From Demequina sp. (GTDB lineage Bacteria; Actinomycetota; Actinomycetes; Actinomycetales; Demequinaceae), in contig NZ_JADQBF010000078.1 of the NCBI RefSeq assembly GCF_016278775.1, forward strand, positions 1 to 43,576: a DNA stretch of 43,576 bases, given 5' to 3'. Under the pieces are notes generated by a model. The model did not search any database. It worked only from the letters and a program-made list of their open reading frames with translations, and had not been told where the DNA came from. Made by a program: the position numbers and the translations under genes. Below, piece after piece: positions 15,020 through 29,807 of the stretch; position 1 is the first letter of the stretch; every line of letters starts with the position of its first letter.

Positions 15020-15245
15020 GTGAAGGCAAGCGTGTGGCGCGGCAGGTGTATTCCCTCGCGGTCCCTCGCGCTCACGCAAAGGATCACAATTTGGTAACGG
15101 TGTGGGGGCGGGCGGTCGCGAGGTGTTGCCACGATGTAAAGAAATCCATCTGCGCAGGTAAAACCGGTATCTTGCTGTGCTAACAAGGAGACTCGCAAGA
15201 CCGTCGGACGCATGTGCGACGGCGCCACAAGAAAGAAGGATAAGG

Positions 15246-16901
15246 ATGCTGCGCTCGCTCACTCACCGGCGTGCGGCGGTCGTGTCCGGAATCGCCATCG
15301 CCACGCTGGCCCTCGCGGCCTGTTCAGGCGATGATGACGATTCGGACCCCACCGGCGACAACGGCTCAAATGAGTCGCTCATTATTGGCACCACCGACAA
15401 GATCACCACCATTGACCCCGCGGGCTCGTATGACAACGGCTCATTCGCGGTCATGAACCAGGTGTTCCCGTTCCTCATGAACTCGCCGTATGGCACCTCC
15501 GATGTGGAGCCCGACATCGCGGCTTCCGCCGAGTTCACCTCTCCAGCCGAGTACACGGTCACCCTCAAGCCAGGGCTGACGTTCGCGAACGGCAACGACC
15601 TCACGGCCTCAGATGTGAAGTTCACTTTCGACCGCCAGATGGCGATCTTCGAGTCCGGCGCCGACGACGGCAATGGCCCCGGTTCGCTGTTGTACAACCT
15701 CGACAGCGTCGCCGCTCCCGACGACACCACGGTGGTCTTCACCTTGAAGTCGCCCAACGACCAGATCTTCCCGCAGATTCTGTCGAGCCCAGCTGGCCCG
15801 ATCGTTGACGAAGAGGTGTTCGCGGCTGACGCGCTGACGCCAGACGCCGACATCGTGGCTGGCGAGGCCTTTGCTGGCCCGTACACGATCACGAGTTACG
15901 ACCAGAACAACCTCATCAGCTACGAGGCGAACGAGGCCTACCAGGGCGTGCTGGGAGCTCCGAAGACCTCGGTGATCAACGTGAAGTACTACACCGAGGA
16001 GTCGAACCTCAAGCTGGACATCCAGCAGGGCAACATTGACGTGGCATACCGCTCGCTGTCGGCCACCGACATTGAGGACCTGCGCGGCGATGACGGCGTC
16101 AAGGTGGTTGACGGACCAGGCGGAGAGATTCGCTACATCGTCTTCAACTTCAACACTCAGCCTTATGGCGCGGCAACCCCGGAGGCGGACGCTAACAAGG
16201 CGCTCGCCGTCCGTCAGGCGGTCGCCCACCTGGTCGACAGGGCAGAGATCTCTTCGCAGGTCTACCGCGACACCTACATCCCGTTGTACTCGTTCGTGCC
16301 AGCAGGCCTGACCGGTCAGACGGAGTCGCTCAAGGGAATGTACGGCGATGGCTCAGGTGGTCCTGACGCCGATGCTGCGGAGGCCGTGTTGGCCGACGCA
16401 GGGGTGAGCACGCCCGTCGAGCTCGACCTCCAGTACAACCCCGACCACTACGGCGGTGGCTCCGCAGACGAGTACGCGTTGGTCAAGGACCAGCTCGAGT
16501 CGAGCGGACTGTTCTCTGTCAACCTGCAGTCCACCGAGTGGGTGCAGTACGCGAAGGACCGCACCGCCGACGTCTACCCGGCGTACCAGCTGGGCTGGTA
16601 CCCGGACTACTCCGACGCCGATAACTACCTGGCGCCGTTCTTCCTGGTCGACAACTTCCTGGGCAACCACTACGCCAACCAGGAAGTCAACGACATGATC
16701 CTGGAGCAGGCGGTCACGAATGACCCGGCCGCACGCACCGCCCTCATCGAGGACATTCAGGATGCCGTCGCCGCAGATCTGTCCACCCTGCCGCTGTTGC
16801 AAGGCGCGCAGGTGGCGGTGACCCGTGCCGACGTGTCGGGCGCAGAGGACACCTTGGACGCCTCGTTCAAGTTCCGCTACGGCGCCCTGTCCAAGGGCTA
16901 A
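15246..16901 (+). CDS. peptide ABC transporter substrate-binding lipoprotein
   Basis: This 551-residue protein begins with a lipoprotein signal (RRAAVVSGIAIATLALAAC), so it is tethered outside the membrane. It has the family 5 solute-binding layout: IIGTTDKITTIDPAGSYDN at the mature start, YTVTLKPGLTFANGNDLTASD, and ALAVRQAVAHLVDRAEI. These capture oligopeptides or related solutes for the importer encoded next. GAAAGAAGGATAAGG precedes the ATG. A strong hairpin follows the stop (16909-16943), so the binding protein is probably made in excess over the membrane parts. The position matches dppA next to acs in mycobacteria. Confidence 0.92.
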   Translation: MLRSLTHRRAAVVSGIAIATLALAACSGDDDDSDPTGDNGSNESLIIGTTDKITTIDPAGSYDNGSFAVMNQVFPFLMNSPYGTSDVEPDIAASAEFTSPAEYTVTLKPGLTFANGNDLTASDVKFTFDRQMAIFESGADDGNGPGSLLYNLDSVAAPDDTTVVFTLKSPNDQIFPQILSSPAGPIVDEEVFAADALTPDADIVAGEAFAGPYTITSYDQNNLISYEANEAYQGVLGAPKTSVINVKYYTEESNLKLDIQQGNIDVAYRSLSATDIEDLRGDDGVKVVDGPGGEIRYIVFNFNTQPYGAATPEADANKALAVRQAVAHLVDRAEISSQVYRDTYIPLYSFVPAGLTGQTESLKGMYGDGSGGPDADAAEAVLADAGVSTPVELDLQYNPDHYGGGSADEYALVKDQLESSGLFSVNLQSTEWVQYAKDRTADVYPAYQLGWYPDYSDADNYLAPFFLVDNFLGNHYANQEVNDMILEQAVTNDPAARTALIEDIQDAVAADLSTLPLLQGAQVAVTRADVSGAEDTLDASFKFRYGALSKG

Positions 16902-16908
16902 TCGCGAG

Positions 16909-16943
16909 GCGTGGGGGTCGGGATTCCCGGCCCCCACGCTTTT
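16909..16943 (+). terminator. intrinsic terminator or attenuator inside the peptide-transport operon
   Basis: GCGTGGGGG (16909-16917) pairs perfectly with CCCCCACGC (16931-16939), with further TCGGGA/TCCCGG pairing inside and TTTT after. It lies 8 bases after the binding-protein stop and 30 before the permease start, a usual place for partial termination that raises binding protein over permease. Confidence 0.82.
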
Positions 16944-16960
16944 GCGTTCCCGCCCGCCTG

Positions 16961-16966
16961 TAGAGT
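16961..16966 (+). promoter_or_regulatory. candidate -10 box for a leaderless permease transcript
   Basis: TAGAGT fits TAnnnT and lies 6 bases before the GTG at 16973. No ribosome site is present there and no convincing -35 was found. It would let the permease and ATPase genes be transcribed apart from the binding protein. Confidence 0.4.
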
Positions 16967-16972
16967 CCAGCC

Positions 16973-18067
16973 GTGGACATTGAGGACGCGAGTATGACGA
17001 CGTCGGTTGACACCAAGGCTCCTGAAGCGCGCCGAGAGAAATCGAGCGGCTCACTCGGGCGGTACATCGCAGTCAGAGCGCTGCTCATCATCCCGACGGT
17101 GTTCATCCTCGTCACCACCGTGTTCGTGCTGATGCGCTCCACGGGTGACCCCATCACCGCAGCTCAAGGCGGAAAGCTGCCGCCCGACCAACTCGCTGAG
17201 CGGATTGCGCAGGCTGGCTACGACCGCCCCATTCTTGTGCAGTACTGGGACTACCTCACCGACATCGCGAGCGGCGACTTTGGCACCACCTTGTCGGACC
17301 ATCGGCCGGTCACCGAGGTGCTCACCAACTTTGGCGCCGCCACTCTCGAGTTGGCCTTCTATGCGCTGATCGTTGCCTTCGCGCTCGGCATCCCGCTGGG
17401 AAGGCTCGCGGCGTATCACCGTGACAAGGCGCCCGACGCCATCTTGCGTGTCTCCGCCATCCTCGCCTATGCGACGCCGGTGTTCTTCGCCGGCCTGTTG
17501 CTCAAACTGATCTTCGCGGTGTGGCTCGATGTGCTGCCGGTTGCTGGTCGCGCATCGACTCGAACGGAACTCGAACTCCAACTGGTGGACAATCCCACCA
17601 ACATCTATCTGATCGACGCCCTCAAGACTGGCGACGGTGCGGTGATCGGTGACGTGCTGCAACATGCTGTGTTGCCGGCGCTCGCACTGGGCCTCCTCAC
17701 CGCCGGAGTGTTCTTGCGACTGGTGCGCACCAACGTGATCTCGACCTTTGGGGCGGGGTTCATTGAGGCGGCACGCTCGCGTGGAGTGCCCGAGCGCCGA
17801 CTGCTGCGCAAGCACGCCTACCGTCCGGCCCTCATCCCCATCGTGACCGTTATGGGCCTGCAGATTGCGCTCTTGCTGAGCGGCGCAGTGCTGACGGAGA
17901 CCACCTTCGAGTGGAAGGGCCTGGGCTTCCAACTTGCCCAGTACCTGCAGGCGCGCGACTTCGTGGCCGTCCAGGGCATCGTCGCCCTCTTGGCGGTGAT
18001 CGTCGCGCTGACCAACTTCTTTGTCGACATCATCGCCGCGCTGATCGACCCGAGGGTGAGGTACTGA
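16973..18067 (+). CDS. peptide ABC transporter permease, DppB-type
   Basis: A 364-residue inner-membrane permease of the binding-protein-dependent family. After a polar N-terminus of about 30 residues, the first helix is VRALLIIPTVFILVTTVFVL. The GDFGTTLSDHRPV element and the EAA loop (IEAARSRGVPERRLLRKHAY), which contacts the ATPase, are clear. It forms the channel with the next gene product. GTG at 16973 fits a leaderless start; the ATG at 16994 is an alternative that removes 7 residues. There is only one base between its stop and the next GTG. Confidence 0.93.
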   Translation: MDIEDASMTTSVDTKAPEARREKSSGSLGRYIAVRALLIIPTVFILVTTVFVLMRSTGDPITAAQGGKLPPDQLAERIAQAGYDRPILVQYWDYLTDIASGDFGTTLSDHRPVTEVLTNFGAATLELAFYALIVAFALGIPLGRLAAYHRDKAPDAILRVSAILAYATPVFFAGLLLKLIFAVWLDVLPVAGRASTRTELELQLVDNPTNIYLIDALKTGDGAVIGDVLQHAVLPALALGLLTAGVFLRLVRTNVISTFGAGFIEAARSRGVPERRLLRKHAYRPALIPIVTVMGLQIALLLSGAVLTETTFEWKGLGFQLAQYLQARDFVAVQGIVALLAVIVALTNFFVDIIAALIDPRVRY

Positions 18068-18068
18068 C

Positions 18069-19094
18069 GTGAGCCAGACACCCGCTGAGGACCTCGCACC
18101 CCACCGCTCCCGCTGGCAGCGACTGCCCATCGTCTCCCACTTGCGTATCAGCGTGGGAGTGCAGCACGGCATGCTCGTCGTCGGGCTGGTGCTGACCGGC
18201 ATCTTCCTGCTCACCGCCCTGTTCGCACCCCTGCTTGCGCCTTACGGCTTCTCCCAGTTGCGCGATGACTCCGGCATGTTCGGCGCACAACAGCCGCCGT
18301 CGAGCGAGCACTGGCTGGGCACCACTCAGGGAGGGCTCGACGTCCTATCGCGGCTCATCTGGGGCTCGCGCACGGCGTTGTACGTGATCGTGGTGGCGGT
18401 AGCCGCATCGATCGTCATCGGCGTCATCCTTGGCCTCATCTCCGGTTACTTCGGTGGTTGGCTCGACCGCACGCTGATCGTCATCGCGGACGCCATCTAC
18501 TCGTTCCCGTCCCTGCTGCTCGCCATCGTGTTGGCGATCGTGATCAGCGGAGGGCAGTCCGACATGTGGGGAGGCATCTTTGCCGCGGCGCTGTCGATCA
18601 CGGTGATCTTCATCCCGCAGTACTTGCGCGTCACCCGAGCGGAGGTGGTGCGCGTCAAGGCGGAGGCATTCGTGGAATCGGCCCGCGTCATCGGCGCGTC
18701 CAACCTGCGCATCATGACCAAGCACGTGCTGCGCAACGCCACCAGAACGCTTCCGCTGATCCTGACGCTCAATGCGTCTGAGGCGATCCTCACGCTCGCA
18801 GGGCTCGGCTTTCTTGGTTTTGGGATCGAGCCGACCGCAGCCGCTGAGTGGGGCTACGACCTCAACAAGTCGCTGTCGGACGTGACGAGCGGCATCTGGT
18901 GGACGTCGGTGTTCCCAGGCGCCGCCATCGTGCTCGTCGTGCTCGGCCTCACCCTGGTGGGCGAGAGTCTCAACGACCTCGCGGACCCGAGGCTACGCAA
19001 GCGAGCGGCTGGCGCGGAGCCGGTCGAGGATCTTGGCGTGGAGTTGCCCCGCACTGACGAGGGCGCGCAGACGCCACGAGAGGGGACGCTGTGA
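18069..19094 (+). CDS. peptide ABC transporter permease, DppC-type
   Basis: The second permease of the importer, 341 residues. An N-terminal helix (MLVVGLVLTGIFLLTALFAP) is followed by HWLGTTQGGLDVLSRLIWGS, typical of DppC/OppC proteins. The EAA loop reads ESARVIGASNLRIMTKHVLR. Five further helices carry the channel, and the C-terminal tail after DLADPRLRKR is polar and acidic. Start is GTG at 18069, directly after the dppB stop; the stop overlaps the ATPase start (GTGA), so the three are tightly coupled. Confidence 0.93.
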   Translation: MSQTPAEDLAPHRSRWQRLPIVSHLRISVGVQHGMLVVGLVLTGIFLLTALFAPLLAPYGFSQLRDDSGMFGAQQPPSSEHWLGTTQGGLDVLSRLIWGSRTALYVIVVAVAASIVIGVILGLISGYFGGWLDRTLIVIADAIYSFPSLLLAIVLAIVISGGQSDMWGGIFAAALSITVIFIPQYLRVTRAEVVRVKAEAFVESARVIGASNLRIMTKHVLRNATRTLPLILTLNASEAILTLAGLGFLGFGIEPTAAAEWGYDLNKSLSDVTSGIWWTSVFPGAAIVLVVLGLTLVGESLNDLADPRLRKRAAGAEPVEDLGVELPRTDEGAQTPREGTL

Positions 19095-20800
19095 CCAACG
19101 TCGTCGATATCCGCGACCTGGCGGTCACGTTCGCCACCGACTCGGGGCCGGTGAAGGCCGTCGATGGCGTGAGCTTCGCCGTGCGCGAGGGTGAGGTGCT
19201 CGCCGTCGTCGGGGAGTCGGGCAGTGGCAAGACCGTCACGGCCAAGACCATCTTGGGGCTGCTTCCAGAGACCGCGACCTTGCGAGGCGCGGTGGTGCTG
19301 AGCAGCAGGGACGGAACCACGGAGGGTGACGTAGTTCAGGTTTCCGGCTCTCGGCTGCGCGAACTGCGGGGGCGCGACGCAGCGATGGTGTTCCAGGAGC
19401 CGTCCACAGCACTCAACCCTGTCTTCCCTGTGGGTTGGCAGATTGCCGAGGGCCTGCGCGCCCACGGGAAGCTGTCGCGCAAGGAGATTCGGACCAAGGT
19501 GCTCGACGTGATGCGCCGGGTGGGAATCCCCGACCCGGAGTCGCGCATCAACCACTACCCCCACCAGTTCTCTGGCGGCCAGAAGCAGCGCATCGTCATC
19601 GCTCAGGCCCTGGTGCTCAACCCCGGCGTGATCGTGGCGGACGAGCCGACCACGGCGCTCGACGTCACCGTGCAGGCCGAGATCCTCGACCTGTTGCGTC
19701 GCTGCAGGGACGAGTTTGGTGCGGCGATCGTGCTCATCACCCACAACATGGGCGTGGTGGCAGACCTGGCGGACCGCGTGGCCGTGATGTATCAGGGCAA
19801 GATCGTCGAGCACGCCGACGTGAAGACGCTGTTCAGCTCTCCCAAGGACCCCTATACGCAGCAGTTGCTCGCGGCCGTGCCGCGCATCGGCGAGGGTCTG
19901 GCGAGAGCGCACGAGCGCGCCGCCCGTAGGCCAGAGGGCTGGTCCGACCAGAAGCCCGTGGTCGAGGCGAAAGACCTTCGCATCACCTATCCCGGGCGCT
20001 TCCGCCAGCCCGACTTTGTGGCCGTCGACGGCGTCGACCTCGCCATCCGACCAGGCGAGGTGCTTGGCCTGGTGGGGGAGTCCGGCAGCGGCAAGACCAC
20101 CATTGGGCGCGCGATGGCCGGGCTCACCAGGGTCTCTGGCGGATCCTTGCGGGTGCTCGACGTCGAGATGCACGGGGTGCGCGAGCGGCAGTTCCGCCCC
20201 ACACGCCGTCGCATCGGCTTTGTTTTCCAGGACCCGGCGACCAGCTTCAACCCGCTGCTCACCATCGCGCAGTGCGTGGCTGAGCCGCTCGTGGTGCACG
20301 GGCTGGCGGAGAACGCCAACGACGCTCGCGTGAAGGTGAACGAACTGCTCGAGGCCGTGCAACTTCCCGCCGCCTTTGGCAACCGCTACCCCCACGAGCT
20401 CTCTGGCGGTCAACGGCAGCGGGCCTCGCTCGCGAGGGCGATCGCGCTCGACCCCGAACTGCTGATCGCCGACGAGCCGACGTCGGCGCTCGACGTGTCG
20501 GTGCAGGCGCGGGTGCTCGACCTGTTCGACGAGCTCCACAGGGAACTGGGATTTGCGGCACTGTTCATCAGCCACGACCTGGCGGTGGTGGACATGCTTG
20601 CTGACAGGATCGCCGTGCTACACAGGGGGCTCTTGGTCGAGGAGGGAACAGGCGACGAGGTGCTCGGTTCGCCGCGCGAGCCGTATACCCAGCGGTTGCT
20701 CGCCTCGCTTCCTGTGCCGGACCCCGTTGAGCAAGCACAACGCCGAACTCAGTGGGAGGCGCTGCGCGAGGCCGACGAGCGGTCCGCGGCAGCAAGATAG
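19091..20800 (+). CDS. fused double ATPase of the peptide ABC transporter (DppD-DppF type)
   Basis: One 569-residue protein carries two complete ATPase domains that are separate proteins (DppD and DppF) in many bacteria. Domain 1 (about 5-265): Walker A GESGSGKTV, signature FSGGQKQR, Walker B VIVADEPTTALD. Domain 2 (about 295-555): Walker A GESGSGKTT, signature LSGGQRQR, Walker B LLIADEPTSALD. Each is followed by the YTQ(Q/R)LLA segment of the oligopeptide ATPase tail. It would power peptide import through the two permeases upstream. The same fusion is known in mycobacterial dppD. The 144 bases after it hold no gene I can support. Confidence 0.94.
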   Translation: MTNVVDIRDLAVTFATDSGPVKAVDGVSFAVREGEVLAVVGESGSGKTVTAKTILGLLPETATLRGAVVLSSRDGTTEGDVVQVSGSRLRELRGRDAAMVFQEPSTALNPVFPVGWQIAEGLRAHGKLSRKEIRTKVLDVMRRVGIPDPESRINHYPHQFSGGQKQRIVIAQALVLNPGVIVADEPTTALDVTVQAEILDLLRRCRDEFGAAIVLITHNMGVVADLADRVAVMYQGKIVEHADVKTLFSSPKDPYTQQLLAAVPRIGEGLARAHERAARRPEGWSDQKPVVEAKDLRITYPGRFRQPDFVAVDGVDLAIRPGEVLGLVGESGSGKTTIGRAMAGLTRVSGGSLRVLDVEMHGVRERQFRPTRRRIGFVFQDPATSFNPLLTIAQCVAEPLVVHGLAENANDARVKVNELLEAVQLPAAFGNRYPHELSGGQRQRASLARAIALDPELLIADEPTSALDVSVQARVLDLFDELHRELGFAALFISHDLAVVDMLADRIAVLHRGLLVEEGTGDEVLGSPREPYTQRLLASLPVPDPVEQAQRRTQWEALREADERSAAAR

Positions 20801-20944
20801 CGGGTAAACGGCGCATTTCGGGCGGCGTTGGTTGCCGGTGTGGCATTTGTCACGTTGGCCTGACGGTGCACTTCCGACGTGATCAGCGCCTTGCGTCCCG
20901 CGGCGCGCGACGGCGGAGTGAACTAGCTGAGGGGCTATTCCTCC

Positions 20945-23470
20945 ATGAGGGTGTTTTCATTCGCGCGGCCACTATGGGCCGCCCTGTTGGCGGTCGTGGT
21001 TCTTGGAACAACGGTGGTGACCGCTGGCCCCGCCCAGGCAGGCCCCGACGACCCGCTCTACCTGTCGGTCACCAAGACAGTGTCGAACGCCACGCCAGAC
21101 CCCGGCGAGCCCTTCACGTACACCATCCGGGTGAGTTGTTCGGAGGCGTCGTGCCTCAACGCCGTCCTCGAAGACACCCTGCCAGCTGAGCTGGCGGGCT
21201 ACTCCATCGAGGATGTGGCGTTCAACCCGAGCGCCTCTGTCATCCCGCGCGACATCACCTGGACGGTCGACGGCGTGCCTGGACCCTCCGCTCCGGCCGT
21301 GGCGACGGCGGACACGCAGTTGCTGGTGGAGTTCCAGGAAACCGTCACCGCCCCCACCGGCGTCGGCCTCCAGAATGGTCAAACCTTCACGGTCCTGTTG
21401 ACCTTGCAGGTGCCCAGCGAGCTGCCACCGGGGACCACGGAGATCACTAACACGGCCAGTACGAGGGCCGACAACTCCTCCGACTCGACGGACTCCGCCA
21501 CCATCACGGTGACCATGCCGGAGCGCATCGAGGTGGATGTCACCAAGGCCTGGACGCCCGCGACGCAGACCTTCCAGGTGGGACGCGCGTCGGCGATCGC
21601 ACTGTCGGCCACCAACACGTCCAACATCACCGTCGACTCGCTCGTGGTGCAAGAGCCTCAGATAGCACCGGACGGCGCGACCACGCTCGATGCGTCCAAC
21701 CCGTTCTCCATCACCGACTTCACCGGCTTCGCCGGATTCGCGATGCCCGCAGGAGCCACCACGGTCCAGGTTGACGCGTACGTGTTCGAGGCGGGTTCGT
21801 GGGGCTGGGTTGCGGGCAGCCCTGGGGCCGCTCCCGCCCTCCCTGCAGGCGTCACGGCGGCCGACGTTGGGGGCCTGCGCTTCGTGTTCGCGGGGGGCGA
21901 CATCGAGCCGGACGCGTCGACAACGGTGACGCTCGACCTCGCCCAGCGCGCGACCGACCGCGAGGGAGCGGACCTCTCCGCGGCCGTCCAGACCGTCCCC
22001 AACGTCGTCGAGGCGACGGCGACGGCCGACGGCCACACCCCCGCCACCGACACCGCGACGGCCACCCACACGGTCAACCCCGCGACGGTGCTGGCGGCGA
22101 CCACCAAGGACATCACGCCAGGCCGGATCGCCGCAGGCGCGACCGCCAGCGGACACATCGTCGCGACCAACGCCTCCGACGTCGGTGTGGTGGAGTTGCG
22201 CGCGGCAGACCTCGGCTACTTCACGGCAGAAGTGACGTTCGGCGGCTTCACCGCGCCGCCCACCTGGCCCACGGGGGCGGAGTCAGCCGCCGTCATCTAC
22301 CACCCCCTGGATGGCAGCCCCGCGGTCACCGTTCCCTTTGCCTCCGGCGCGACTCCGGCGGACCCGATACCGGCGATCTCGGGCTTTGAGGTCGTGTTCT
22401 CTTCCGCGACAGGAGCCATTGCGCCAGCCTCGTTCAGCGTCATCGACTTTGACATCGACACCACTGAGGACGCGATCGGCGGCCTCGCATCTGTCACCAC
22501 CACCAACACGGTGGAGACCTCGGTTGAGGCGTCGAACGGACTCACCGATAGCGCGACCGACCCCGCCAACTTGGTGCTGCTCGAGCCAGCCATAGACGTC
22601 ACGTTGAACAAGTCGATCTTGCCGTCCGCCGCGGTTGCTCCAGGCGAGCGCGTCGTGACCAGACTGGAGACGCGCCTGACCACTACCTCCGACTACATCA
22701 CGGCCGACACGATTGTGGTCGCGGACTCGTGGAGCGGTGCCGGTAGTTTCTGGGACGCCTTCGAGTTGGACAGTCTCGCGCCCACTCAGGTGCCAGCGGG
22801 CACCTCTCTCACGGTCGAGGTACTGGGCCCTGACACGGTGACGTGGGCAGTCGTGGGCACCTTCGCAGCGGACCCCTCACCCTTTCTCGCATCGATGACG
22901 GAGGCCCAACTGGTGACGGCGCTCGCGAGCGAGCCCTTCACGCTGCCTGAGGTCACGGGCATTCGCTTCACGTTCGAGAACTCAACGGGATTCGCGTCAG
23001 ACACCACGGTCACCCCGTATGTGGTCTCGCGGGCCATGGACACTCTGCGCAGCACCGGCGGCCCGACGGCGCCAGCGGACGGGACGGTCGTGTATGAGAA
23101 CTCCGGCTTTGCGGGCGGGTCTGGCGAGACCGAGAGCGGCACTCCTCTGAGCGACACTGACGACGACGTCGACCCCTCCACTGTCGAATCGGCAGCAGGC
23201 GCTGGCACTGCAAGCATCGAGAAGGCGTGGAGCCAGATCACGGTGCCTGCGCAGTCCGGTGCGGAGCGCTCCACGAGCCTGACGTGGTCCGTCGGCGAGT
23301 CGAACACGCAAGTAGCGATCACGGACTCGGCGGGCCTCACGGACCCCGACGCGCCGGAGGACACTGTCTTCGAGGCATTCGATCTGTTGTCACTCGACCC
23401 GATTGCGGCCAGTGACACACCCTTCACCAACGGCTGGTACATGAAGTACGACACTGTCGAGTCCGTGTGA
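20945..23470 (+). CDS. N-terminal part of a giant secreted repeat protein, ended by an in-frame TGA
   Basis: The 841-residue part starts with a classical signal peptide (cleavage after GPAQA, about residue 32). It consists of beta-rich modules of about 180-200 residues that open with phrases such as LSVTKTVSNATPDPGEPFTYT, VTKAWTPATQTFQVG and LNKSILPSAAVAPGERV, resembling DUF11/conserved-repeat surface domains. GAGGGG precedes the ATG at 20945. It stops at TGA 23468-23470 inside a module, while the same frame stays open afterwards to 26836. Alone it would be secreted without any wall anchor. It is best seen as the first half of one gene. Confidence 0.85.
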   Translation: MRVFSFARPLWAALLAVVVLGTTVVTAGPAQAGPDDPLYLSVTKTVSNATPDPGEPFTYTIRVSCSEASCLNAVLEDTLPAELAGYSIEDVAFNPSASVIPRDITWTVDGVPGPSAPAVATADTQLLVEFQETVTAPTGVGLQNGQTFTVLLTLQVPSELPPGTTEITNTASTRADNSSDSTDSATITVTMPERIEVDVTKAWTPATQTFQVGRASAIALSATNTSNITVDSLVVQEPQIAPDGATTLDASNPFSITDFTGFAGFAMPAGATTVQVDAYVFEAGSWGWVAGSPGAAPALPAGVTAADVGGLRFVFAGGDIEPDASTTVTLDLAQRATDREGADLSAAVQTVPNVVEATATADGHTPATDTATATHTVNPATVLAATTKDITPGRIAAGATASGHIVATNASDVGVVELRAADLGYFTAEVTFGGFTAPPTWPTGAESAAVIYHPLDGSPAVTVPFASGATPADPIPAISGFEVVFSSATGAIAPASFSVIDFDIDTTEDAIGGLASVTTTNTVETSVEASNGLTDSATDPANLVLLEPAIDVTLNKSILPSAAVAPGERVVTRLETRLTTTSDYITADTIVVADSWSGAGSFWDAFELDSLAPTQVPAGTSLTVEVLGPDTVTWAVVGTFAADPSPFLASMTEAQLVTALASEPFTLPEVTGIRFTFENSTGFASDTTVTPYVVSRAMDTLRSTGGPTAPADGTVVYENSGFAGGSGETESGTPLSDTDDDVDPSTVESAAGAGTASIEKAWSQITVPAQSGAERSTSLTWSVGESNTQVAITDSAGLTDPDAPEDTVFEAFDLLSLDPIAASDTPFTNGWYMKYDTVESV
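23468..23470 (+). other. single in-frame TGA dividing one surface-protein gene
   Basis: The frames before and after are the same, and the module continues across the stop: YDTVESV, stop, LYRAGLWQEV aligns with the QVDAYVFEAGSW segment of an earlier module, the stop falling at a tyrosine position. No other stop occurs in the 5.9 kb. The following base is C (TGAC), a context known to be leaky in E. coli. Confidence 0.85.
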
Positions 23471-23497
23471 CTGTACCGCGCGGGTCTCTGGCAGGAA

Positions 23498-26400
23498 GTG
23501 CTAGAGCCGGTGAGTGGCTGGGTTGACGCGTCAGGCCGCTTCGTGGGTTACGAACTGACGGCCACCGAGTCGGATGAGGCCACCGGCGTCAGGATCGTCC
23601 TCAGCGAGAACGCGACCGCGCGGGCCGACGCCCGTGCGGTGGGCGAGGACTACGATCCCTACGCCCCCGAGGTGGGAAGCGGCGTGGCGTCGAGCAGCGA
23701 GGCGCGCGAGTTCTCGCTGACGTGGCAGCTGCGCGACAAGATGCGCGGGAGCGGCGCGTGGGTCACGGATACCGCGCTGTACAACGGCGGCGCGCCCGGC
23801 GTGGTCGACAACACGGTGCTGCTGGAGGCGACACCCGAGAGTGGCGGCCCTGTCACCGGCACCGCCAATGACGAGATCGTGATCACCGACCCGGGCCCCG
23901 GCGTCACGGTCGACAAGTCCGTCTCGCCCACCTCCCTGCTCTACGTGCCGATGGAGGGAAGCCTCGCGTCGAGTTACCCGACCGCCAGGTTCCGGGTGGT
24001 CGCCCGAAACAACTCGGTCTCGCAGGCGTCCTACGTACGCGTCATGGACTCTCCTGTGTGTACCGATAGCGCGGACATTGTCACCTGCGAAAGCCCGGCC
24101 ACGGCGGCAGGGGCGCTCGCAGACCCGTTCACGTCCGGCGTGAACTGGCTGACAGCGGCTGGCCAGGGAAATCCGTTTGACCGCTTCAACCTCACCGATG
24201 TGGCCATCGCGGCGTCGATTCCGGCTCAGGTCGATCTCAATGCCTCGACGGTGTGGCTGCTGCACTACAACGCAGGGGTGTACTCGACCACGAGCCACAC
24301 GGCCGCCCAGGTCAACGCGATGTCTTCCAGCTCCCTGGCCGACGTCGTCGGCATCTCCGTGACGTTCCAGGACACAGACCCTGTCACCGACGGCGGCAGC
24401 ATCTCGTCGGCCAATAACCTGACCGTCACGCTCTACACCCGCTTGCGCACGCACCTACGTGTCAGCGGCGACGCGCAAACCGTCGCCGCGAACGAGCGGC
24501 TGAACGTGCCAAACCGCGCCTTCGCCCAGTCCTACGACCCCGTCCTGAACGACGGCGTCGGCACTGGAGCGGTGGACGCGGTATCGGCCAGGTTGACTGG
24601 CGGCGACATCAATGTGGCAGCGCTCAAGTCGGTCTCCCCTGCCGCGTTGACGGAACCCACGCGCAACGACCCGGTCACGGTCACGCTCGGTGCGAACCAG
24701 GGCACCGCGCCCGTCAGTTCACTCCCGCCTGCGGAGGTGCGCCTCACGGACGACGCTTCCACGTCGCCCGAGTTCTGGAACCAGTTCTCTTTCACCGGCC
24801 TGGGCACCCTCACGCCGCCTGCCGGAGCCGACCAGGTGGTCGTCTCCGTTTACGGGCCGTTTGGACCTGCGGGAACCATGACCTGGGTGTCGAGTGCCGC
24901 CACCTCGATTGCCGGTGCGACGGTGCCGGTGCCCTCTGGGCAGTACGCAGACATCCAGGGCTTGCAACTCGCGTTCTCACGGGCAGACGGCGGCTTCTTC
25001 TCGAACACCATGCCAGCCGCGTCGTGGAGCACATCGTCCACCTTCACGGTGAGTCTGAGGGACACCTATCGCGACTCCGGCGACACCGTGGCGCTCACGG
25101 GAACGGTGGACAACACGGTCACGGTCATCAGCGACCGCCTCAACGGCGAAACCTCGGTAGAGAGGACGGCCGCGGCGCAGATCAGCCTGAGCCCAGGCAC
25201 CTATGAGCTCGAGGTGAACAAGCTCGCGAACGACGGCAACCACACCGCCAGTGCAGGCGAGTCGGTGCCGTGGGACCTGACCTTCACGAACGCTGGCACG
25301 GGCTTCCTCACCATCACCGAGTTGCGAGACACGCTTCCCGCGGACCTGGTGTACCTGGGGGATACGGCACCCGTGTACACCCCGGACGCGTCTGGAATGC
25401 TGCCTGAGCCTGCCGACATGACGCAGGTGGGCAACGAGCTCGTGTTCACCTGGCCCTCCGACGCACGCACCATGGCGCCTGGCGAGACCTTCTCCTTGAG
25501 GCTGATGCTGGAGGTGCAACCCGGCCTCGCCGCAGGCGACCGGGCCACCAACGAGATGACGGTCACCACCGCCGAGACCCTCGCCTCGTGTGCCAACATC
25601 GACGACGGCGGTTCCACCACGTCGGCGTGGGCTGACGACCCCACCACGTGTGGCACGACGGACTACGTCACCCCCAGCGTCGGCCCCAACCTGTTCACGG
25701 TGAAGGGCGTGCGCGGCTCTCTCGACGGTGCGTCGAACCCGCTCAACCCCGAACAGGAGTGCCTGGCTTCTCTCGACGCCACCGGCGGCTCGTACTTCCG
25801 CGCACCTTGCGCCGCCAACAGCGTCATCGGCGGAGTCGATGACTGGGTGCTGCGTGCTCAGAATGCTGGCACCACCGGCCTGGACGAGATGGTGATGTTC
25901 GACGCATTGCCAGGGCCGGGCGACAGGTACTTGATCTCCGGTTCGAGCCGCGGCTCCAGCTACCGCCCGCAGATGCTCGACAACCTCGACATCGACGCCC
26001 CCACGGGAACGGACATCCAGATCGAGGTGACGGTCTCGCCGAACCCATGCGCCGGGACGTGGGCAGGCCTTGAGGGACAAGAACCGTGTGAGCAGAACTC
26101 CGAGGTGTGGGTGCTGTCGGGCCCCGGCACCGACTGGTCCACCGTGACCGCCTTCCGGATCTTCCTCGACTTCGCTTCCACCGACTCAGGAATGCTCTCC
26201 CCTGGAGACATCGTCGACGTCACCTACAGCACCGCGAACGTGCCAGCCACGTCGTCGGATCCCACGGGCGCCGAAGTTGACGTGCCGGTCGCCGACTCCT
26301 ATGCGTGGAATCAGTTCGGTGTGAAGTACCTCGATACAGGGGCGACCGCGTACCGCAAGATCGCCCCCGCTCGCATGGGCATCCACCTCATGACGGGCGC

Positions 26401-26836
26401 GCTGCAACTCGACAAGGTGGTGACAGGCGTGTACTCCCGCCTCGCGCCGAGCAGCTTTGTCGTGGACGTGGCGTGCACCGTGGAGGGTGCACCCGTGAAC
26501 ATGGGGGACTTCTCGCGACTGACGCTGAGTCGTGCGGACGGGTTCTCGGCCCTCATTGAGGGCGTGCCCGTTGGTTCCGAGTGCGTGTTGACGGAATCCG
26601 ACTCCGGAAGGGCCAACTCGGCGACCTTTGCAGGAGACGGCGTCACGCGAGTGTCCAGCGTGAGCGCCTCCGTACCCATCACGGCCGGGACCGTCACTGT
26701 CACGCTCACCAACAGGTTCGACAGCGAGCTTGCTTTCACGGGAGTCAGCGGGGTCTCGACCCTCATCCTGCTTGCGGTCGCTCTGGTTGGCCTCGGTCTG
26801 GTGCTGGCGGTGAGAGGGCACAGGCGACGCACCTGA
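23498..26836 (+). CDS. C-terminal part of the giant surface protein, LAFTG sortase-anchored
   Basis: The 1112 residues continue the module series (VTVDKSVSPTSLLYVP, VAALKSVSPAALTEPTRNDP, LEVNKLANDGNHTASAGESV). A cysteine-containing section with CASLD/CAANS-type residues follows, then a DUF5979-like domain (DKVVTGVYSRLAPSSFVVDV to VTLTNRF). It ends with the sorting signal LAFTG, a hydrophobic helix and RGHRRRT, as for substrates of a class E sortase. The GTG at 23498 has no usable ribosome site and no signal peptide follows it, so separate translation would give a protein that cannot be exported. Readthrough, a nonsense mutation or a sequencing error are the explanations. Confidence 0.8.
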   Translation: MLEPVSGWVDASGRFVGYELTATESDEATGVRIVLSENATARADARAVGEDYDPYAPEVGSGVASSSEAREFSLTWQLRDKMRGSGAWVTDTALYNGGAPGVVDNTVLLEATPESGGPVTGTANDEIVITDPGPGVTVDKSVSPTSLLYVPMEGSLASSYPTARFRVVARNNSVSQASYVRVMDSPVCTDSADIVTCESPATAAGALADPFTSGVNWLTAAGQGNPFDRFNLTDVAIAASIPAQVDLNASTVWLLHYNAGVYSTTSHTAAQVNAMSSSSLADVVGISVTFQDTDPVTDGGSISSANNLTVTLYTRLRTHLRVSGDAQTVAANERLNVPNRAFAQSYDPVLNDGVGTGAVDAVSARLTGGDINVAALKSVSPAALTEPTRNDPVTVTLGANQGTAPVSSLPPAEVRLTDDASTSPEFWNQFSFTGLGTLTPPAGADQVVVSVYGPFGPAGTMTWVSSAATSIAGATVPVPSGQYADIQGLQLAFSRADGGFFSNTMPAASWSTSSTFTVSLRDTYRDSGDTVALTGTVDNTVTVISDRLNGETSVERTAAAQISLSPGTYELEVNKLANDGNHTASAGESVPWDLTFTNAGTGFLTITELRDTLPADLVYLGDTAPVYTPDASGMLPEPADMTQVGNELVFTWPSDARTMAPGETFSLRLMLEVQPGLAAGDRATNEMTVTTAETLASCANIDDGGSTTSAWADDPTTCGTTDYVTPSVGPNLFTVKGVRGSLDGASNPLNPEQECLASLDATGGSYFRAPCAANSVIGGVDDWVLRAQNAGTTGLDEMVMFDALPGPGDRYLISGSSRGSSYRPQMLDNLDIDAPTGTDIQIEVTVSPNPCAGTWAGLEGQEPCEQNSEVWVLSGPGTDWSTVTAFRIFLDFASTDSGMLSPGDIVDVTYSTANVPATSSDPTGAEVDVPVADSYAWNQFGVKYLDTGATAYRKIAPARMGIHLMTGALQLDKVVTGVYSRLAPSSFVVDVACTVEGAPVNMGDFSRLTLSRADGFSALIEGVPVGSECVLTESDSGRANSATFAGDGVTRVSSVSASVPITAGTVTVTLTNRFDSELAFTGVSGVSTLILLAVALVGLGLVLAVRGHRRRT

Positions 26837-26971
26837 GGTCGAGCGTCCGGACGCCGCGAGCGTGTGCGGGGGTGTCAGTGCCCTGCAGCTGTGGCACATT
26901 GTGTGCAATGCATGTGTGAGGCTGCGCGCGGAGGGAGGGTCCGATGGGCCGACGTGAGGTTGCGGGGCGCG

Positions 26972-27754
26972 ATGGTGGATAGGCGCCTGCGTGTGATCGG
27001 GTGGAGCCTGATCGTGGGCGGACTCGTCGGATTGACGGTGCTCGCTGCGGCGTTCTACGCGATGGAGTACCTGCCGGACAGGGATGCTGAGGGCAGACCT
27101 CTCCCCAGCGCCTCCCCGGCCACGGCTACCGCCACCGCCACCGCCACCGAGCCAGCCTCGCCGAGCGAGAGCGCGCCTGCGTCGTCGTTTGACGACAGCG
27201 GGCTAGAGGCGCTCGAGGATCTCACGGTGCTGGGCGGGACCGATGTGCCAGCCGGGCTGTACCGCGTGATCGAACCCGTTGAAGGCGACAGCGGCGTCAA
27301 CGGCGGGATCCTGTTTGACCGCTCCTGCAAGTGGGGCCTGTACGAGGGTGCCGAGCGGGGGATTGACCAGATCGCGATGGCCAACGTGACGGACGGCGGC
27401 CATCCTGTGATGCGCATCGCTGACGGACAGCGCGCGTACTCCCAGAACTGCGGAGCGTGGGCGCTCGTGGACGAGCCCTTGCCAGCGTCGGCCGACCTCG
27501 CTACGTCCATCGACGACGGCTACTGGGCGGTGGGCATCGATGTCGCCGAGGGCACCTATGAGCGGCTCGGAGTTGTCGACGGTGACGACCCAGACACCTG
27601 GTGTGTATGGACGGTGCTTGAATCCTTTGAGCCAGGCGCCGCGACCGTCGCGCAAGAGTTCGACTTCACGGGGGACGGCCCCAGAACGGTGGACTTGGCC
27701 GACGGTCAGGTGTTGGACTCGAGCGTGTGCGGCGGCTGGCAGCGCGTCGGGTAG
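26972..27754 (+). CDS. membrane-anchored protein with two tandem extracellular modules
   Basis: The 260-residue product has a short basic N-terminus, one helix (about 7-29, VIGWSLIVGGLVGLTVLAAA), and a linker with an (Ala-Thr)n run encoded by a GCCACC microsatellite. Two similar modules of about 80 residues follow: VPAGLYRVIEP...CKWGLYEG...CGAWALVD and VAEGTYERLGV...CVWTVLES...CGGWQRVG. Each has a Cys-x-Trp and a Cys-Gly-x-Trp, so an internal disulfide is likely. This layout is common in actinobacterial lipoproteins of unknown role. The ATG at 26972 is preferred because an upstream extension is Cys-rich and implausible; a GTG at 26954 is also possible. Confidence 0.78.
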   Translation: MVDRRLRVIGWSLIVGGLVGLTVLAAAFYAMEYLPDRDAEGRPLPSASPATATATATATEPASPSESAPASSFDDSGLEALEDLTVLGGTDVPAGLYRVIEPVEGDSGVNGGILFDRSCKWGLYEGAERGIDQIAMANVTDGGHPVMRIADGQRAYSQNCGAWALVDEPLPASADLATSIDDGYWAVGIDVAEGTYERLGVVDGDDPDTWCVWTVLESFEPGAATVAQEFDFTGDGPRTVDLADGQVLDSSVCGGWQRVG

Positions 27755-27776: not shown

Positions 27777-29807
27777 TCAGTCCGCCTTGCCTGCGGCCAG
27801 GCCCTCCCGGATCGCATCCATCACCGACGAGTCGGCGAGCGTCGTCACGTCGCCCACCACCCTGTTCTCTGCCACATCGCGCAACAGCCGCCGCATGATC
27901 TTGCCGGAGCGGGTCTTGGGCACCTCGGCCACCACCAGGATGTCGCGCGGCTTGGCGAGCGGCCCGATCTGCTTGCGCACATGCTCGCGCAGAGCAGTGG
28001 TGACGGCCTCGCCCTCCGTCGGCACATCGGCCGCGTCGGAGCGCACAATCACGAACGCCACCACGGCCTGGCCAGTGATCTCGTCGTTGGCGCCCACCAC
28101 GGCCGCCTCCGCGACCCACGGGTGGGACACGAGCGCGTGCTCAATCTCCGTGGTGGTGAGGCGGTGGCCTGAGACGTTCATGACGTCGTCAACGCGGCCC
28201 AGCAGCCACAGGTCTCCGTCCACGTCCTTCTTGGCCCCGTCGCCAGCGAAGTACATGCCGTCAAAGTGGTTCCAATACGTGGACTGGTAGCGGTGGCGGT
28301 CGCCCCAGATGCCGCGCAGCATCGACGGCCACGGCTCGGTGATGACCAGGTAGCCGCCCTCGCCGTTGCGCACTGGCGACCCGGCGTCGTCCACCACCTC
28401 GATGGCGACGCCAGGGATGGCCGTCATGGCCGAACCCGGCTTGGTGCCCGTCACTCCCGGCAGCGGGGAGATCATGATGGAGCCGGTCTCCGTCTGCCAC
28501 CAGGTGTCGACGATGGGGCAGCGGTCGTAGCCGATCACCCGGCGGTACCACATCCACGCCTCGGGGTTGATGGGCTCTCCCACGGAGCCGAGCAGCCTCA
28601 GCGAGCTCAGGTCGTACTGGTCGGGAATGGCCTCTCCCCACTTCATGAAGGTGCGAATCGCGGTGGGGGCGGTGTAGAGGATGGTGACCTTGTACTCCTG
28701 GATGATCTCCCACCAGCGGCCCTCGTGCGGGGTGTTGGGCGTGCCCTCATAGAGCACCTGGGTGGTGCCGTTGATCATGGGTCCGTAGACGATGTAGGAG
28801 TGGCCGGTCACCCAGCCGACGTCGGCGGAGCACCAGTACACGTCGGTCTCCGGCTTGATGTCGAAGACGATCCGGTGCGTGTGTGCCACTCCAGTGAGGT
28901 AGCCGCCGGTGGTGTGATAGAGCCCCTTGGGGGTGCCGGTGGTGCCCGAGGTGTAGAGGATGAACAGGGGGTGCTCCGCCTCGACCCACACGGGCTCGTG
29001 CTCTGCCGGCTGCGGGTCCACCACGTCGTGCCACCAGATGTCGCGGCCGTCCTGCCACGCTGTCTCTTGGCCGGTGCGCTTCACGGTGAGGATGTGTTCG
29101 ACGCTCTTGCACGGCCCTGGATGCGCGGTGCCTTCACCGTGGCTGGCGAGGGCCTCGTCCACCAGGGGCTTCAAGGCGAGGTGGGAGCCCCGCCTGTTGC
29201 CGCCGTCGGCCGTGATGACCAACTTGGCCTCGGCGTCGTCAATCCTTTGGCGGAGGCTCTCGGCGCTGAAGCCGCCAAAGACCACCGAGTGGATGGCCCC
29301 GACGCGGGCGCAGGCGAGCATGGCGACCACGGCTTCTGGGATTTGGGGCAGGTAGATGGCGACCCTGTCGCCCTTGCCGATGCCGATCGACTCGAGGCCG
29401 CGCGCCGCCTTCTGGACGCGCTCGAGCATGTCGGCGTAGGTGAGGGTCTGGGTGTCGCCTGGCTCGCCCACAAAGTGGAAGGCGACGCGGTCGCCGCGGC
29501 CCTCGCGCACGTGGCGGTCCACCGCGTTGTCGCACGCATTGAGGGTGCCGTCGTGGAACCAGCGGGCCACAGGGGCGTCGGACCAGTCGAGGATCTCGGT
29601 GAAGGGTTCGTGCCACTCCAGGCGCAGCGCGGCCTCCCGCCAGTACTGGAGCGGATCGACCTTGGCCTTCTTGTACTCGTAGCTGGTCGCGTTGGCGTGC
29701 GCGGCCATGCCTACAAGAGGCGGGAAGATCCGCTTCTCGGTGTGCAGGTTCTCGAGGGTGTGACGGGACGGAGCGTAGCCGCCGGGGACATGGGCATCTT
29801 TGACCAT
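27777..29807 (-). CDS. acs: acetyl-CoA synthetase
   Basis: The enzyme makes acetyl-CoA from acetate, ATP and CoA through an acetyl-adenylate. The 676-residue sequence has the whole AMP-forming signature set: the adenylation loop YTSGTTGTPKG, VGWVTGHSYIVYGP for CoA and acetate binding, DTWWQTETGSIMIS, the hinge LGRVDDVMNVSGHR, and the catalytic lysine in PKTRSGKIMRRLL, the residue that is acetylated for control in homologues. The ATG at 29807 has no ribosome site but a promoter fitting a leaderless transcript (29814-29843). In M. tuberculosis acs also lies beside the dpp operon. Confidence 0.96.
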   Translation of the reverse strand: MVKDAHVPGGYAPSRHTLENLHTEKRIFPPLVGMAAHANATSYEYKKAKVDPLQYWREAALRLEWHEPFTEILDWSDAPVARWFHDGTLNACDNAVDRHVREGRGDRVAFHFVGEPGDTQTLTYADMLERVQKAARGLESIGIGKGDRVAIYLPQIPEAVVAMLACARVGAIHSVVFGGFSAESLRQRIDDAEAKLVITADGGNRRGSHLALKPLVDEALASHGEGTAHPGPCKSVEHILTVKRTGQETAWQDGRDIWWHDVVDPQPAEHEPVWVEAEHPLFILYTSGTTGTPKGLYHTTGGYLTGVAHTHRIVFDIKPETDVYWCSADVGWVTGHSYIVYGPMINGTTQVLYEGTPNTPHEGRWWEIIQEYKVTILYTAPTAIRTFMKWGEAIPDQYDLSSLRLLGSVGEPINPEAWMWYRRVIGYDRCPIVDTWWQTETGSIMISPLPGVTGTKPGSAMTAIPGVAIEVVDDAGSPVRNGEGGYLVITEPWPSMLRGIWGDRHRYQSTYWNHFDGMYFAGDGAKKDVDGDLWLLGRVDDVMNVSGHRLTTTEIEHALVSHPWVAEAAVVGANDEITGQAVVAFVIVRSDAADVPTEGEAVTTALREHVRKQIGPLAKPRDILVVAEVPKTRSGKIMRRLLRDVAENRVVGDVTTLADSSVMDAIREGLAAGKAD

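Follow-up and report, generated by a model that had tools for sequence, protein, structure and literature searches.

Introduction

Internalin A (InlA) of Listeria monocytogenes is a sortase-anchored surface protein. Nonsense codons in its gene, inlA, shorten the product; as described, such codons have appeared repeatedly, in numerous strains, and have been examined experimentally. Another related design is that of multi-module proteins with DUF11 and DUF5979 domains and a LAXTG motif, found with a class E sortase, LAXTG being the signal of this enzyme class (PMC5148588). Interrupted coding sequences have been described in another actinobacterium, Mycobacterium smegmatis, where real mutations were mixed with errors and the interrupted genes were re-sequenced (PMC1852416).

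The window analysed here, a stretch of 43,576 nucleotides, is contig C62 of a draft Demequina genome (G000; 2.52 Mb, 115 contigs, 93.9% complete), which is, at a guess, metagenome-assembled. It carries a surface-protein gene with an in-frame TGA that recalls each of these systems. As in inlA, a nonsense codon is expected to shorten the product, although the Demequina stop occurs in one genome and is known from sequence alone. As in the DUF11/DUF5979 proteins, DUF11 in the first half, DUF5979 and a LAFTG tail are encoded and the genome contains one class E sortase, but in G000 the anchor is severed from the leader by the TGA. As in M. smegmatis, a real mutation has to be told from an error; unlike the genes of that study, the Demequina gene is known from its assembly.

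Organisation of the gene and its surroundings

The stop-to-stop frames 20927-23470 and 23471-26836 of the forward strand are in the same register and make up one frame, in which TGA 23468-23470 is the sole interior stop between the ATG at 20945 and the terminal stop at 26836. The frame contains 841 sense codons ahead of the TGA and 1121 past it, 1,962 in total. The first open frame (20945..23470, +) encodes a putative signal peptide and 841 surface-protein residues, with matches in the genomes G003, G013, G007, G048 and others. The signal peptide region MRVFSFARPLWAALLAVVVLGTTVVTAGPAQA (20945..21040, +) was assigned by eye from the translation, so that its end is approximate; it has a typical look and is conserved in G003. 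The second half (23471..26836, +) continues for 1121 residues, the earliest possible start past the TGA being GTG 23498. Its final 35 residues (26729..26833, +), delimited by the translation and a tail alignment, comprise the LAFTG sorting signal, a hydrophobic helix and the basic tail RGHRRRT. The analysis of frames and stops and the translation thus bear out two claims of the preliminary description made from the letters of the window: two long frames in register around a lone interior stop, and a probable leader in the first part with the anchor in the second. In G003, leader and anchor are joined in a single frame.

The DUF11 domain scored above the cut-off at residues 40-183 of the first half. 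The second half contains a DUF11-like stretch slightly below the cut-off, and DUF5979, above the cut-off, close to the C-terminal end. The single sortase match in G000 is a class E sortase (NF033747, 241 bits at a cut-off of 160). The product is best explained as a multi-module, adhesin-like surface protein of Demequina anchored by the class E sortase. The sorting signal varies among relatives, being LASTG in G013, LAFTG in G003 and one G007 copy, and LALTG in the other G007 copy.

Upstream of the gene lies an operon (15177-20800) whose last gene encodes an oligopeptide-type ABC transporter ATPase (19091..20800, +); gene by gene, the operon is 92-96% identical to that of G003. Downstream lies acs, a gene for an acetyl-CoA synthetase-like AMP-binding enzyme (27777..29807, -), 96% identical to its counterpart in G003 and 93% in G013. 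The G003 orthologue is flanked by the same operon and the same acs gene, and G013, whose contig begins within the surface-protein gene, has the same downstream neighbour. A further gene of the window, at 26864-27754, separates the surface-protein gene from acs and encodes an Rv1352/Rv1906c domain. No counterpart of it was detected by tblastn in the stretches retrieved from G003 and G013, in which the gap measures 669 and 140 bases, respectively. A scan for promoters and terminators returned no promoter-like sites and three terminator-like sites, with 2.3 expected by chance.

Orthologues and the interrupted module

The search for relatives covered 58 other genomes, 36 of them from the window's own genus, and the nearest matches in named Demequina records were at 80%, 64% and 55%. 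Both halves match uninterrupted single frames in G003 (1966 aa) and in G013 (1917 aa, truncated by the contig start), which confirmed that the two halves are evidently parts of one gene. Identity to these orthologues is 76-81%, and that of the adjoining transporter operon and acs is 92-96%. More distant matches, at 49-66% identity, were found in G048 and G007. The latter, a metagenome-assembled genome of Demequina lutea, carries two copies of the surface protein, one of which runs across contig ends.

The alignment with G013 crosses the TGA without gaps over 201 residues, and a single gap of 3 residues interrupts that with G003, some 40 residues ahead of the TGA. In the distant homologues the gaps lie further away, yet a residue is present at the TGA position. 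The preliminary description had also stated that the sequence across the stop aligns with other modules of the same protein. This was not confirmed, as the best local alignment score was 36, compared with a shuffled 95% level of 46.

The module containing the TGA (23210..23893, +; approximately 228 residues) has a G003 counterpart whose AlphaFold2 model is a beta-sandwich with a mean pLDDT of 92.9. The TGA matches residue 86 of this model, in strand 80-89; in the predicted structure it falls within a beta-strand of a pilin/adhesin-like module, the fold matches having been obtained with VIA-align. PDB sequence searches gave no significant match, the best E-value being 0.52 for the module profile, with none for the second half.

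The intact G003 module was searched against 44 genomes of the genus, including the window's own, and 18 matched. This number is a lower bound, because it misses several genomes in which other searches had located a distant copy. A stop within the module was present in one of the 18, the window's own genome, and no stop at this site was found in the other 17 or in 24 distinct aligned loci.

The codon at the position of the stop

The alignment database contained 39 loci, 35 of which aligned across the TGA (L039, L042, L046 and L058 did not), leaving 24 distinct loci after records of the same place were merged. Comparison of the codon among these loci gave a sense codon at all 24: Glu (GAG) at 15, Leu at five, Arg at two and Gln and Met at one each. 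The nearest orthologues all have Glu. An aromatic residue was found at none of the 24, contrary to the earlier placement of the TGA at an aromatic position. The proposed origin by one step from TGG to TGA is contradicted as well, since GAG, the codon of the nearest homologues, differs from TGA at all three positions. Either the lineage of the window passed through an intermediate sense codon, or several bases changed jointly, or a base call is wrong.

A probable recent nonsense change

It seems probable, at roughly 0.6, that the surface-protein gene recently underwent a nonsense change, confined to this lineage, that produced the TGA. Translation would then stop after 841 residues, and the secreted product would be a fragment that breaks off in an incomplete module and is devoid of the sorting signal. 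Synthesis of the anchored C-terminal part would be lost, and that part would be without a leader even if translation restarted at GTG 23498 or 23510. The correctness of the base calls, the secretion of the first part and the fate of the product are what we infer. This reading is favoured by the single frame, the single interior stop, the intact orthologues and purifying selection that is still unrelaxed. A pseudogene is recognised by a lesion absent from its orthologues, and, given correct base calls, the present lesion is absent from them. Against the nonsense change, TGA is unreachable from GAG by one base change and needs an intermediate codon or a local multi-base change, and the one TGA is the sole sign of decay.

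Selection was compared between the lineage of the window and the intact lineages G003 and G013. With pairwise dS near 1, which makes the figures rough, branch dN/dS past the TGA was 0.143 in the window lineage and 0.128 and 0.146 in G003 and G013, while before the TGA the values were 0.133, 0.204 and 0.164, respectively. Neither a second stop nor relaxed selection was found past the TGA; the lack of decay beyond one stop is as expected if the TGA is very recent. Purifying selection past the TGA similar to that in the intact orthologues indicates that the TGA is very young, or an error, or suppressed. A bootstrap over the 1121 codons past the TGA put the upper limit (97.5%) for the possibly neutral share of the window branch at 0.078, with a dS of 0.41 for the whole branch, so that the TGA would be no older than about 0.03 synonymous changes per site.

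A possible sequencing or assembly error

The main rival to a recent nonsense change, tentative and distinctly less probable, is an error of sequencing, consensus or strain mixing in the draft genome, the living gene being uninterrupted. The TGA is present in one genome only, it departs from a conserved codon at three bases, selection past it is entirely intact, and the assembly is a draft. There is also a precedent, as 28 of 73 interrupted genes re-sequenced in M. smegmatis proved to be sequencing errors (PMC1852416). However, by the design of that study, those errors consisted entirely of insertions or omissions of bases, with no miscalls (PMC1852416).

The quality of the sequence was assessed on 41 stretches (48 kb) aligned with G003 and G013. 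In six of them, including that with the surface-protein TGA, a stop lies over 30 residues away from the ends; to judge by their positions, the other five are shadow frames or frames that reach upstream beyond the true start. In this loose comparison, by the author's reading, the gene bodies in about 48 kb contain no other stop and both frameshift-like pairs sit in shadow frames, which stands against an error. The absence of other stops in gene bodies argues for a decent sequence quality, although it does not prove the base call in the surface-protein gene itself. A compensated pair of indels was also considered as a sign of error. Such a pair can be drawn at the TGA in both comparisons involving the window, yet it says little, because patches of this kind are common between intact genes (46, 30 and 53 in three pairwise comparisons).

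Readthrough, recoding and a split gene as improbable alternatives

The preliminary description listed three possibilities: recent inactivation, a sequencing error and UGA readthrough. The first two stand, and the third was left without positive support. Readthrough would mean leaky UGA termination, maintained by selection, that yields a small full-length fraction anchored in the wall and a large secreted fraction, and it is improbable here. TGA is described as a leaky stop (PMC7918605), and C at position +4 as a context of inefficient termination, above all after UGA (PMC5289835). Purifying selection persists on the second half, and an extensive survey makes the case that dN/dS frequently stays below 1 in spite of in-frame stops (PMC7918605). 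The same survey, which uses low dN/dS to argue for readthrough, also describes in-frame stops as tending to be short-lived (PMC7918605), and the dN/dS observed here is equally well explained by a very young stop. The TGA is absent from all relatives compared.

The context does not single out this stop either. Among 230 open reading frame ends in 340 kb, with the frames chosen by a codon-usage rule, TGA occurs at 95, and 42 of these are followed by C, which makes TGAC the commonest TGA context in the sample and that of ordinary gene ends. No marked RNA structure was found past the TGA in comparison with shuffled sequences (z -0.8 and -0.6); the strongest value, z -1.7 for 23440-23550, was equalled or bettered by 14 of 200 shuffles. 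A more specific version, in which a selected leaky UGA in a giant wall-anchored adhesin determines, for one Demequina lineage, how much of the protein is secreted relative to the amount anchored and a near-cognate tRNA fills the conserved Glu position, is less probable still.

In the same sample of 230 ends, heuristic in its choice of frames, TAG accounts for 112 and TAA for 23, and in G003 TAG, TGA and TAA account for 94, 62 and 30 of 186. In high-GC actinobacteria TGA is the dominant stop. TAG as the commonest stop in the sample therefore seems odd for such an organism.

A scan of 340,253 bases of G000 for open frames continuing in the same register past a stop gave 18 rows, among which the surface-protein gene is the only one with TGA. 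In the remaining 17, a start codon follows 1-17 codons further on, and they look like neighbouring genes. A control scan of 300,000 bases of G003 also gave ten rows, three of them with TGA, so that a row of this kind carries no weight on its own.

A code with reassigned UGA is ruled against by the presence of the RF2 gene prfB, which scored over the cut-off, and by the 95 of 230 frames ending in TGA. Recoding by a selenocysteine or suppressor tRNA is unsupported, as no such tRNA was found in an incomplete set and the TGA is not conserved. No tRNA-Sec exceeded the cut-off; the best match, 45.9 bits compared with the required 47, lies at a tRNA-Ser called by ARAGORN. ARAGORN called 39 of the 40 Rfam tRNA matches, the remaining one lying at a contig end, and none of the 39 has a TCA anticodon, that of one being undetermined. 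The set is considered incomplete because tRNA-Ile(GAT) is missing from it. To one tRNA-like gene (L122:132-202; G000:C110:9682-9751) ARAGORN assigns an anticodon of two letters but no amino acid; a search of 18 other genomes with a 116-base stretch around this gene gave no DNA match at E 0.001.

That the gene has divided into a pair of functional genes, the downstream one starting at GTG 23498 or 23510 (the 10th and 14th codons past the TGA, with AGGA at 23493-23496), is hardly credible, since the second part would start in mid-module without a signal peptide, which would make its LAFTG anchor unusable, and no relative's match is divided at the place of the TGA.

Biological significance

Should readthrough after all be true, the TGA would be an unusual leaky stop that splits a surface protein between the cell wall and the medium. 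An error at the TGA would mean a plainly intact gene. A nonsense allele in a surface protein is an ordinary kind of change. If the TGA is real, it would be one further example of a nonsense allele of recent origin, in a surface protein that evolves fast, and such changes can inactivate or release an adhesin.
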